Of a stretch of 64,000 bases of DNA, positions 3,053 through 7,305 are shown piece after piece. Within the stretch, counting starts at the first letter, position 1. Every line of letters starts with the position of its first letter. The position numbers were made by a program, and so were the translations under genes. The notes under the pieces were generated by a model, which saw only the letters and a program-made list of their open reading frames with translations, had not been told where the DNA came from and did not search any database. Source of the DNA: Candidatus Barnesiella excrementigallinarum (GTDB lineage Bacteria; Bacteroidota; Bacteroidia; Bacteroidales; Barnesiellaceae); contig DXFL01000006.1 of NCBI GenBank assembly GCA_019114445.1, forward strand, positions 62,001 to 126,000, given 5' to 3'.

Positions 3053-4396
3053 ATGTACGCCATCGGTAAAATACTGAAAACGATACGCGAGGAACGCGGG
3101 CTGCAACTTCAACAGGCCGCCAGCGAATCGAATGTCGACCTCACTCTGCTAAGTCGCATCGAAAACGGCAAGCGATTGCCTACCGAAAGTCTACTGGTGA
3201 AATTGGCCGCAATATACGGAGTCGACAACGACGAACTAATTGTACAACTGGTCAGCGATAAAATCATAGAAATAGGGAACAAATATCCCGAACACAGGAT
3301 CGATGCCTTGAAAGTGGCTTTGGAAAAAGCGAAACTCGGCGACCGCTATATCGCCCTATTTATGAACTCGGTGGTATCCCGGCCGATTGGACTGGAAAGC
3401 CGCCGATACATCGGGAACAAAACCAAACTGACCGACTGGATTTTAGAGACGATTCGTCGGGAATGCCCGCAGGCCCACTCGTTCTGCGACATCTTTGCCG
3501 GTACGGGAGCCGTAGCCAACAAGGCTATTCCCTACTACGACCGGGTCATACTCAACGACTTGCTCTGTGCAAACCGGGTTATCTACGAGGGTTTCTTTGC
3601 CCCGGGCGAATGGAACAGGGAAAAGCTATATGCGATTCTCGACGAATACAACCACCTCGAATACGACAAGCTCGAAGAGAACTACTTCTCGATGAATTTC
3701 GGCGGAAAATATTTTGGACACGGCGTATCCAAATTGATTGGATATGTACGTGAAGACATAGAAAACCGACGCCGTACACTCACCGACAAAGAATATTCCA
3801 TTCTGCTCTCCACCCTCATTTATAACATGGATCGCATTGCCAACACCGTGGGACACTTCGATGCCTACATACAAGGGAAAGAGATCGACCAACAAACCAT
3901 CACCTTCCGAATGATCGATGCCCGAAACTGCGACAACATAGAAATTTACCAAGAAGACAGCAACAAGCTGGCGCGGGAATTGCAAGCCGACATCGTATAT
4001 ATGGACCCGCCCTATAACTCCCGGCAATATTGCGATGCCTATCACCTTTACGAAAATTTGGTGCGCTGGGAAAAACCCGAAGTGAAAGGAGTAGCCGGAA
4101 AATTTCCCCAAAAGGATAAAAAAAGCGATTTTTGTACGATGAAAGCCGTCGATGCTTTTGCCGATCTCGTCGAGAATTTACATACCCAATATATCGTATT
4201 GTCTTACAACAATATGGCTAAAAAGGGGAATGGACGGTCCAATGCCAAAATGGACGATAACGACATTTTGAGGATACTCCGGGCCAAAGGCGACGTACAA
4301 GTTTTCACCCACGACCACAGAGCATTCACAACCGGGAAATCCAATATTCAAAACCATCAAGAACGTCTATTCGTATGCACCTGCAACAACCGTTAA
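3053..4396 (+). CDS. HTH (XRE/Cro-C1) domain fused to D12-class DNA adenine methyltransferase (M1 of type IIS R-M)
   Basis: N-term IGKILKTIREERGLQLQQAASESNVDLTLLSRIENGKRLPT is a canonical HTH; then YIGNKTKLTDWI, DIFAGTGAVANKA, DIVYMDPPYNSRQY, YIVLSYNN. Track start 3026 is less likely than 3053. Confidence 0.92.
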   Translation: MYAIGKILKTIREERGLQLQQAASESNVDLTLLSRIENGKRLPTESLLVKLAAIYGVDNDELIVQLVSDKIIEIGNKYPEHRIDALKVALEKAKLGDRYIALFMNSVVSRPIGLESRRYIGNKTKLTDWILETIRRECPQAHSFCDIFAGTGAVANKAIPYYDRVILNDLLCANRVIYEGFFAPGEWNREKLYAILDEYNHLEYDKLEENYFSMNFGGKYFGHGVSKLIGYVREDIENRRRTLTDKEYSILLSTLIYNMDRIANTVGHFDAYIQGKEIDQQTITFRMIDARNCDNIEIYQEDSNKLARELQADIVYMDPPYNSRQYCDAYHLYENLVRWEKPEVKGVAGKFPQKDKKSDFCTMKAVDAFADLVENLHTQYIVLSYNNMAKKGNGRSNAKMDDNDILRILRAKGDVQVFTHDHRAFTTGKSNIQNHQERLFVCTCNNR

Positions 4397-5316
4397 ATAA
4401 ACCGGAGCACATACAATCGCCGCTCAATTATACGGGAGGGAAGTTCAAGTTGCTGCCCCAGATACTGCCGCTGTTCCCCACGGAGATAGATGTATTGGTC
4501 GATCTGTTTTGCGGAGGAGGCAATGTGGGTATCAACGCCGTGGCCGACCGCATTGTACTAAACGACTCGAACCGGAATGTCATGCGTATATTCCAACTGT
4601 TCAAACAATACCCTACCGAACAGATACTAAACACCATCGACGGCATTATCGACCGATACGAACTGTCGGACAGCCGCACAAACGGATACTCGTTCTACCA
4701 TTGCGAGAGCTCCGGTGGTTTAAGCCCCTATAACAAAGAGCGATACAACCGACTGCGCTACGACCTGAACCACATGAAAAGGAGGAACGACCGCTACTTC
4801 TTCATGCTGTTCACACTCATTGTGTTTGCATTCAACAATCAAATACGATTCAACGAGAAAAAAGAATTCAACCTCCCGGTGGGAAAACGCGATTTCAACG
4901 ACCGGATGAGAGATAAAGTCGTACGTTTTACCGAAGCCATCAAAAATCCACAAATAGAGCTGTCGACAAACGATTTCAGCAAAATCAAATTCGACGGGCT
5001 ATCGGACCATAGCCTCATTTATGCCGACCCGCCCTACCTCGTAACCTGTGCCTCTTACAACGAAGGGAACAGCTGGAATACCCGGCTCGAAAAACGATTG
5101 CTTGCATACCTCGACCGAGCCGACGAACATGGCATAAAATTTGCATTATCCAACGTATTGAGAAACGGAAACAAAGAAAACACAATATTGCAGGAGTGGA
5201 TAAATCGGAACCCTCGATATATCCAACACAACCTGAATTACAATTACAGCAATTCGAGCTACCACAAAAAAGACCGGAGTAAAAATTCTACCGAAGTTTT
5301 AATCACTAACTTTTAA
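4375..5316 (+). CDS. D12-class DNA adenine methyltransferase (M2 of type IIS R-M)
   Basis: YTGGKFKLLPQI, LVDLFCGGGNVGINA, LIYADPPYLVTCASYN; overlaps the upstream methylase by 22 nt. Confidence 0.93.
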   Translation: MHLQQPLNKPEHIQSPLNYTGGKFKLLPQILPLFPTEIDVLVDLFCGGGNVGINAVADRIVLNDSNRNVMRIFQLFKQYPTEQILNTIDGIIDRYELSDSRTNGYSFYHCESSGGLSPYNKERYNRLRYDLNHMKRRNDRYFFMLFTLIVFAFNNQIRFNEKKEFNLPVGKRDFNDRMRDKVVRFTEAIKNPQIELSTNDFSKIKFDGLSDHSLIYADPPYLVTCASYNEGNSWNTRLEKRLLAYLDRADEHGIKFALSNVLRNGNKENTILQEWINRNPRYIQHNLNYNYSNSSYHKKDRSKNSTEVLITNF

Positions 5317-5322
5317 TGAAGT

Positions 5323-7305
5323 ATGTGTACCTATAAAAGCTATTGCTGGTCGTTGGGGACCACAAGTTTCAGAACGGCCGATTTCAACCTGAAAATCGAA
5401 AAACAGTTGCTGCTTCTTTCTGAATTTTGGCAAAAACACCCCTATGGCAGATGGGCGAGCAACGAACCGATACAGGCTTTATACTACGACTTCATGAAAG
5501 AGAGCCGGTTCCTCTCAGGCGATGCCCCCAACAAACCGAAAGATGCCCGGGAAAAGACATCGGGTTTAATCAACTTGGGACTAATCAACGACGAACGCCG
5601 GTTGACCCATGCCGGGGAATCGCTCCTGCACATCGCCGCTTCCGGCAACTTCCAATCGAACAACCTGTTACAAATCCCGTCGGACAGCTACATCTACTTC
5701 AAACAGATGTTGAAAACGAGTTGTGCCGTCGAAAAGACACCGGTTCGGCCGTTTGTCGTGTTGATTCTGGCGTTGGAAGAATTGGAATACCTCACCCAAG
5801 AGGAGTTTACCTACCTGCTACCGCTCATCATTTCGCCCAAGAAATACCGGGATATTATCGAAAGTATCAAACAGTTGCGCAAAGGAGATACCACCATCGA
5901 CGAGATTATAATCCATACGCTGCTCTCTATGGAAAACTATCACGAGGCTTTGCGCTTCCTATTGGAAAGGCCGGTTTCCGAATCGGTCATTTGCGAAGCA
6001 GGAATCAACCGAAAAAGCCGGCAATACGACGGGGCCTATTATTTGCTCTATCAAGCAATCAAGGATCTAAACAAGGACGATCCGCAATCTCTACTCAACC
6101 TGCTGAGTGCCTGCCGAAAAATCCGTATCGGCATACAGTGGAGCAACTATCTTTTCAAAACGACAAGTAAAACACGTATTTCCCGGCTACTCTCTTTGGC
6201 TCTCAACGATGTACCTGTCTTGAACTGCAAAAACGAAGACGAATTGAAAATTCGCTTTTTCCACCTGATGCATCTTTTCAAAGCGAAAGCCAATCTCTTC
6301 GACTACTCCGACCTCAACCGACGCTACTTTGCGACAACCGACACGGTTCTCTTCAAAGACAACCAAATAAAACTGGCTTCGGTTCCGAAATGTTTCTTCA
6401 AACTCTGTATCGACAACCTTCGCGAACTGGCCTTCACCGCCTCCGAAAATCTACCTCTCGATTGCGGTATCGAACAAATCATACCCCGCTACAACATCAG
6501 CGAAAACGATCTGTTCGACAAACTGGCAAGCGACTATGGCATTACGGTGCAATCGCTCAGCGATGTGGAAAAATTCCTCGACGACGAACGGCACAAACGA
6601 TTCAACAAACTCATCGACGACCAATTCCCCAACCACGTCCTGCTGGAACTGCTCTCCGATTTCGAAACCCGCAACGACGACAACATACGCTCTCTTGTCA
6701 CCAACAACGCCGACATACCTACCATTTTCGAATACATTGTCGGCATTATTTGGTATAAAGTAAGCAACCGACAAGGGCGGATTCTCGACTACCTGAACCT
6801 ATCGTTAGACGCCGATCTGCTGCCCAAGACCCACGCCGCAGGAGGAATAGAAGATATAACCTATCACTACGATGCCTCGCCGTACTACCCGGAGCATTCG
6901 CTGTTGATAGAACTTACCCTTGCCGACGGCAACAATCAACGCCGCATGGAGATGGAACCTGTATCGCGCCATTTGGGCGAGTTTCTCTTACGAGACGAAA
7001 ATCAAAAGGCGTATGCCCTGTTTGTCACCCCGTACCTCCACCTCAATGTCGTCTCGGACTTCCGGGGCCGCAAACAAATGCCCTATTATTCGGGCGATGG
7101 CGAACATTGTATAAACAGCATGAAAATTATTCCATTACAAACGGCCGAATTAAAAACGATTCTCGAACATTCGATTACGTACAATACCCTCTACCCGCTT
7201 TTCGAAAAGGCTTACCTCAGCGACGAAATGCCCAAAACGTGGTACGAAAAAAACATCTTGGCATACTTACAGAATACCCAAACCACACCGAGGCTTCCGC
7301 TATAA
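5323..7305 (+). CDS. Type IIS restriction endonuclease, BstNBI/MlyI/AlwI family
   Basis: C-terminal [15 protein letters not shown]...[24 protein letters not shown] resembles the HAAG...D...E.T...Q..ME.EPV.RH signature of N.BstNBI-like enzymes; N-term WSLGTTSFR; follows two methylases. Confidence 0.9.

Follow-up and report, generated by a model that had tools for sequence, protein, structure and literature searches.

Closest described systems

An arrangement of one restriction endonuclease with two adenine methyltransferases has been documented for AlwI-like and SfaNI-like systems (PMC4081073 and, in the part that deals with such systems, PMC9799307). AlwI itself (GGATC 4/5) belongs to the RE_AlwI family and has a separate adenine methylase domain for each strand (PMC4081073); the two form one fused chain. 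In the SfaNI-like system of Caldicellulosiruptor (R.Cal02329, M1, and M2; GCATC/GATGC), an AlwI-family endonuclease is accompanied by two separate adenine methylases, and the part of the source that covers this system does not mention an HTH fusion (PMC9799307). In BspD6I/BstNBI (GAGTC), nicking is the work of a large subunit that acts without its small subunit (PMC4081073). The operon that we describe here is an AlwI-family type IIS R-M system of the ordinary, textbook kind. Like the SfaNI-like system, and in contrast to AlwI, it has separate methylases, although its site may differ from that of the SfaNI-like system; the first of its methylases carries a Cro/C1-type HTH.

M.EcoRII, M.SsoII, M.Ecl18kI, and M.ScrFI methylate cytosine at C5 and belong to type II systems, whose sites are palindromic. 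Each represses itself by means of an N-terminal HTH at an operator that overlaps the promoter (PMC3874152). A controller HTH is also joined to an R-M enzyme in the C-methylase fusions of Mollicutes and in the PvuII-like C-REase fusions (PMC5282649, PMC3850674). Because both the autorepression of C5 methylases by an HTH and controller fusions are known, the mechanism that we propose below is of a known kind: it is a variant, set in a type IIS system with adenine methylases and with its own, distinct operator. In contrast to the EcoRII, SsoII, Ecl18kI, and ScrFI methylases, the HTH is here attached to an adenine methylase of the D12 class, in a type IIS system whose endonuclease gene lies in the same operon. 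In contrast to the C-protein fusions, the operator is a different one (TTTGaCA-N5-TGTCAAA) and so is the host group.

A three-gene operon with two adenine methylases

The window (the whole stretch of DNA that we analyzed) is 64,000 nucleotides from Candidatus Barnesiella excrementigallinarum. It encodes three intact open reading frames, whose coordinates are exact to the base:

3053-4396, plus strand: M1, 447 amino acids from an ATG start at 3053; HTH_3 domain (amino acids 8-58) fused to a MethyltransfD12 domain (amino acids 119-363) with a DPPY motif
4375-5316, plus strand: M2, 313 amino acids; D12/Dam-type adenine methyltransferase, presumably for the other strand
5323-7305, plus strand: R, 660 amino acids; AlwI-family type IIS endonuclease with a C-terminal PD-(D/E)xK-type nuclease domain

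M1 and M2 overlap by 22 nt, and 6 nt separate M2 from R; a first-pass annotation of this DNA had described the same tight packing, and we computed the same ORF coordinates. The family assignments are clear. In M1, Pfam finds HTH_3 with 47 bits (versus 23) and MethyltransfD12 with 117 bits. M2 matches MethyltransfD12 with 101 bits and also passes the cut-off of the NCBIfam Dam model (130.8 bits versus 114.85), and its DPPYL motif is invariant in an alignment. R matches RE_AlwI with 245.5 bits (cut-off 23.1; E = 1.4e-72), and the match covers positions 2-441 of the 441 in the profile. PADLOC likewise reports all three products as type II methylases or endonuclease. Two D12 adenine methylases thus adjoin an endonuclease gene. 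These matches support the first-pass reading of a type IIS R-M operon, with an HTH-D12 methylase, a second D12 methylase, and an AlwI/BstNBI-family endonuclease, a reading that hung on the third ORF having an HMM match to that family.

We consider it very likely that this is a complete and intact AlwI-family type IIS operon, with strand-specific methylation by M1 and M2, cutting by R, and closure of the operon by the HTH of M1 at positions 3025-3043. M1 and M2 would act on a short asymmetric site, in which each enzyme methylates an adenine on a different strand, with the division of strands between them inferred. We propose that R recognizes this site in its unmethylated state and cleaves the DNA next to it, probably as a homodimer that makes a double-strand break.

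A conserved predicted operator on the promoter of the operon

Three features lie upstream of M1:

3007-3043, plus strand: 37-nt block with the same sequence in the window and the congener G002, between flanks that cannot be aligned (from an alignment of the upstream regions of the window, L043, and L023)
3021-3028, plus strand: -7 element TAnnTTTG, TAATTTTG, which adjoins the operator in 6/6 HTH-methylase cassettes that have the operator
3025-3043, plus strand: operator TTTGCCA-TACGT-TGTCAAA, an imperfect palindrome that overlaps the -7 element; predicted site of the M1 HTH

G002 carries the same split cassette of HTH-M1, M2, and R (locus L043), with 71-85% identity. Around the block, the window and G002 are 93% identical over 45 nt, and nothing can be aligned from there to the trmD side. 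This palindrome occurs once in this genome and once in G002, with zero copies in the seven other genomes that we searched. TAnnTTTG is the -7 promoter consensus of Bacteroides and other Bacteroidetes (PMC4747536), so by sequence the conserved palindrome sits on the operon's own -7 element. (A TTG at 3026 is less likely than the ATG at 3053 to be the start of M1, because that TTG falls within the operator and the G002 relative retains the ATG.)

The consensus TTTGaCA-N5-TGTCAAA is present 21-30 nt upstream of M1 in 6 of the 7 HTH-M1 cassettes, with matches at 11-13 of 14 positions; the cassette of G349 has no recognizable operator. Dinucleotide shuffles reached the scores of the cassettes in 0-21 of 2000 cases, and 15 control upstream regions (those of 12 HTH-free methylase genes and of M2, R, and the ABC-F gene) scored at most 9/14. 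The consensus was first drawn from these fused loci themselves, and the independent part of the evidence is the 28 other relatives of the HTH. In a first sample, the operator was upstream of 8/8 relatives (12-13 of 14 positions). In a further sample, 16/20 relatives had at least 12 matching positions and 18/20 had at least 11, with gene starts taken from hit coordinates; with starts placed by tblastn, 8 of these 20 could be scored and 5 had at least 12. Just 6 of 3713 control windows scored at least 12/14. Furthermore, the left arm of the operator completes TAnnTTTG in 21 of 33 loci, including all 6 fusions that have the operator. This operator was not found in the literature that we searched, and it may be known in REBASE or from a survey of the binding sites of control proteins.

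The relatives of the HTH are found with R-M enzymes of several types. In Pfam-checked cases, the relative lies beside a C5 methylase (L120), lies between the mod and res genes of a type III system (L124), or is fused to an N6/N4 methylase (L116). PADLOC also lists related control proteins for the HTH of M1. The most fitting interpretation of the HTH is that of an R-M controller-like domain fused to a methylase. The first-pass annotation had given M1 an HTH label; the domain is confirmed, and it now appears to be more than a label, as it belongs to a controller-like family with a conserved operator.

We predict that M1 represses its own operon by binding the palindrome at 3025-3043. A single promoter before M1 would serve the entire operon, and the N-terminal HTH of M1 would bind over its -7 element. 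On entry into a new host, where M1 is absent, the operon would be open and the two methylase genes would be read first; as M1 accumulated, it would shut its own operon, including R. The fusion would let the methylase sense its own level.

An alternative is that the HTH is not a simple autorepressor but acts as a C protein, which activates at low level and represses at high level. C proteins do both (PMC3874152), the HTH resembles control proteins in PADLOC, and the -7 box has no clear -33 element before it, which may leave the promoter weak unaided. We nevertheless find this alternative rather doubtful. A single palindrome over the -7 element has the geometry of a repressor site. Activating C proteins usually have two tandem sites, and in the fused loci we saw no such pair.

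The HTH of M1 may be one member of a wider group. We tentatively suggest, as a possibility that falls somewhat short of even, that it belongs to a family of R-M controllers found throughout the Bacteroidales, either alone or fused to a methylase, and that members in type IIS, C5, and type III systems all use one operator, TTTGaC-N7-GtCAA, at the -7 box. If so, R-M systems that reside in the same cell would repress each other, which would lead to cross-talk or exclusion between unrelated systems. Because the 19-bp operator, the protein, and the promoter element can all be named, the regulation would be cheap to test. And because the same operator recurs before some 30 related HTH genes in our sample from this order, one gel shift could serve to annotate an entire family of probable R-M controllers in Bacteroidales.

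Relatives of the cassette and its genomic location

Besides the copy in G002, M1-M2 (separate or fused) and R are found together in about 15 other loci, and this recurrence implies that the layout is not due to chance. The relatives of R (43-52% identity) are from Firmicutes, Moraxella catarrhalis, and other Bacteroidales, and nearly all of them are preceded by a pair of D12 methylases, in many cases as a single fused chain. The N-termini of these relatives do not resemble HTH_3. (Several of them begin with another short segment that, on visual inspection, looks MerR/HTH-like; the one that we compared to Pfam had no match.) Five other Bacteroidales genomes encode an HTH-D12 M1 (46-51% identity; L111-L115), followed by a more distant M2 and an endonuclease of about 520-540 amino acids. 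In four of these genomes (G004, G032, G119, and G349; the fifth is G350), the third gene matches RE_AlwI. This implies that HTH-D12-AlwI cassettes are a recurrent and ordinary form in this order. The system in the window adds one more AlwI-family enzyme, from a Bacteroidales genus; its use would lie mainly in rendering such bacteria transformable, and it might provide a new reagent.

The cassette lies between trmD and a gene for an ABC-F ATPase. (From their translations, we take the upstream genes to be zwf, pgl, and trmD, with trmD divergent, and the downstream gene to encode the ABC-F ATPase.) The G+C content of the block is about 0.43-0.50, versus 0.54-0.56 in the upstream genes and at the start of the ABC-F gene, which fits acquisition. 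The trmD and ABC-F neighbors are present in all eight congeners, and the promoter region of the ABC-F gene is kept in all of them. In G001, G004, G005, G006, and G008, the matches to trmD and the ABC-F gene are about 90-125 nt apart, with nothing inserted. G002 has the cassette and a 394-amino-acid protein of secreted type at this spot, while G003 and G007 have a gene on the opposite strand. Its product in G003 contains DUF1016_N and YhcG_C (PDDEXK) domains and matches PADLOC's PDC-S02; the copy in G007 looks frameshifted, as two overlapping ORFs. Nuclease genes appear to use this site as a small insertion spot. A sequence labelled as phage (MT836408) encodes a protein 72% identical to R; because MT836408 is an unannotated faecal scaffold with the same cassette as G002, we did not count it as evidence that phage carry the system.

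Recognition site

The first-pass annotation held that the specificity of the system cannot be read from its sequence, and this still holds. We asked which sites are avoided in 40-184 kb of sequence from each genome. The most avoided of the 512 five-mers in this genome is GGATG (observed/expected = 0.28, z = -11.8). Avoidance of GGATG is not tied to the cassette, as it extends to most of the genus: the ratio is 0.08 in G001, 0.15 in G006, 0.16 in G007, 0.21 in G005, 0.47 in G008, and 0.62 in G002. GGATG is not avoided in G003 (0.86) and G004 (0.90), and the ratio in other Bacteroidales is 0.83-0.97.

A second pair of D12 methylases, with a 474-amino-acid endonuclease, adjoins secA in G002, G005, G006, and G008, and is broken in G007. 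Its layout is that of Pin25611FI/Pin17FI, the GGATG system of Prevotella intermedia (PMC5608340). This separate GGATG-type system accounts for the avoidance in several congeners. It is absent from that place in this genome and in G001, so it does not account for the avoidance in these two. A relic of a FokI-like system beside secA can be rejected as the cause here, as there is no trace of one at secA.

It is therefore improbable that the system in the window recognizes GGATG/CATCC, the FokI site, despite the strong avoidance of GGATG here (more than of any other five-mer), its low ratio in G002, and the D12 pairs that are known for that site (PMC5608340). The avoidance is equal or stronger in congeners that lack the cassette (G001, G005, G006, and G007), and it is also seen in G008; the secA-side system provides another source for it; and M2 is just 43-45% identical to the GGATG-type methylase, which lacks the middle segment that is present in M2.

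It is similarly doubtful that the site is GGATC, as for AlwI. The name of the family points to this site, and M2 scores above the Dam cut-off, which suggests a target that contains GAT. On the other hand, the sites of AlwI-family enzymes vary and include GGATC, GAGTC, and GCATC, in the part of the source that lists them (PMC9799307), and GGATC is not avoided in this genome (observed/expected = 0.99), although a lack of avoidance is weak evidence. The ratios for GCATC (0.77) and GAGTC (0.59) have their lowest values in this genome, but not so in G002, where the same cassette is present. Given this discrepancy and the genus-wide signal for GGATG, we rejected the assignment of a site from host avoidance. 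We also rejected an assignment from the PADLOC models, which carry no site labels.

The endonuclease and how it cuts

By sequence, R resembles N.BstNBI/BspD6I at residues ~439-581 only. This is the nuclease domain, and it includes the HAAG-x-EDITYHYD block in which the first-pass annotation had seen a likeness to the N.BstNBI/MlyI/PleI/AlwI family, in agreement with the RE_AlwI match. We predicted the structure of R with AlphaFold2 from an alignment of the proteins of the window and of the fetched loci, with three rows from plasmid and phage collections left out (pLDDT 85.6, pTM 0.84). The best PDB match to the predicted fold is N.BspD6I (E = 2e-13), whose likeness to R in fold reaches along the chain only loosely, and the next is the small subunit of BspD6I (E = 5e-6). 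N.BspD6I variants E418A and D456A are catalytically deficient (PMC6261011), and both acids are kept in R:

6730-6732, plus strand: codon of E470 of R, equivalent to the catalytic E418 of N.BspD6I (residue 467 of R aligns with residue 415 of 6qnz, without gaps to 470)
6853-6855, plus strand: codon of D511 of R, equivalent to the catalytic D456 of N.BspD6I, from the sequence alignment

E470 and D511 are invariant across 16 sequences. In contrast, outside of the nuclease domain, the full-length model aligns poorly to N.BspD6I (TM ~0.42, rmsd ~11 Å), so the recognition part of R may differ from the solved one; identity over the whole fold alignment is low (~15%).

Could R be a natural strand-nicker like the large subunit of BspD6I/BstNBI, so that the system nicks and does not cut? 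Its closest solved structure is a nickase, and PADLOC's models for nicking endonucleases (PDLC03393/03394) match its nuclease domain weakly, but we judge this quite unlikely: the best PADLOC model is for an ordinary type II enzyme (PDLC03557, E = 1e-36), RE_AlwI is matched over the full model, and a nickase on its own would do little to keep out phage DNA. The first-pass annotation had considered that nicking and double-strand cleavage could not be told apart from sequence. Nicking now seems the less likely of the two, because there is no small-subunit ORF between the end of R at 7305 and the ABC-F gene at ~7391, and because the genome (94% complete) contains a single match to RE_AlwI. We infer that R more likely acts as a homodimer that cuts both strands.

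The trmD/ABC-F insertion site

The site between trmD and the ABC-F gene, which holds the main operon in the window, looks like a minor hotspot where nuclease genes insert. In two congeners, G003 (locus L044) and G007 (L048), a gene on the opposite strand occupies this site in place of the operon, and the product of the G003 gene matches both DUF1016/YhcG PDDEXK and the PADLOC model PDC-S02. The site lacks any insert in five other congeners.

Relatives of the M1 HTH domain

About 28 relatives of the HTH domain of M1 (the first methylase of the main operon) were sampled (L116-L124 and L204-L223). 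Most of them stand alone as proteins with a length of about 100 or 200 amino acids. Nearly all of these relatives are also preceded by the main operon's operator (consensus TTTGaCA-N5-TGTCAAA), which is the predicted site of this domain.

GGATG avoidance and the secA locus

Most of the genus (the window's own genome, G000, and congeners G001-G008) strongly avoids the FokI site, GGATG/CATCC, with observed/expected ratios as low as 0.08. Loci adjoining secA (L188-L191 and L194) encode two D12 methylases and a 474-amino-acid restriction endonuclease, a layout similar to that of the GGATG system of Prevotella intermedia. This system is broken in G007. The genomes with strong avoidance of GGATG/CATCC include G000 and G001, where the search next to secA turned up no GGATG-type system.

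Other restriction-modification and defence genes

Besides the main operon, the window encodes a second restriction-modification system, made up of a methylase and an endonuclease (14061-16531, minus strand), in a stretch whose G+C content (about 36%) is far below that of its surroundings. Another methylase lies beside a large open reading frame that looks like a helicase/nuclease.

Restriction-modification and adjacent genes in the window
14061-15563, minus strand, N6/N4 methylase of the second system
15575-16531, minus strand, BsoBI/AvaI-family endonuclease of the second system (family match, 488 bits)
19857-20804, minus strand, another N6_N4 methylase
20808-23801, 997-amino-acid open reading frame adjoining the preceding methylase

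In the window's own genome (G000:C2), a 303-amino-acid D12 methylase is followed by a 778-amino-acid protein with a match to DndB; this locus (L193) is possibly another defence locus.
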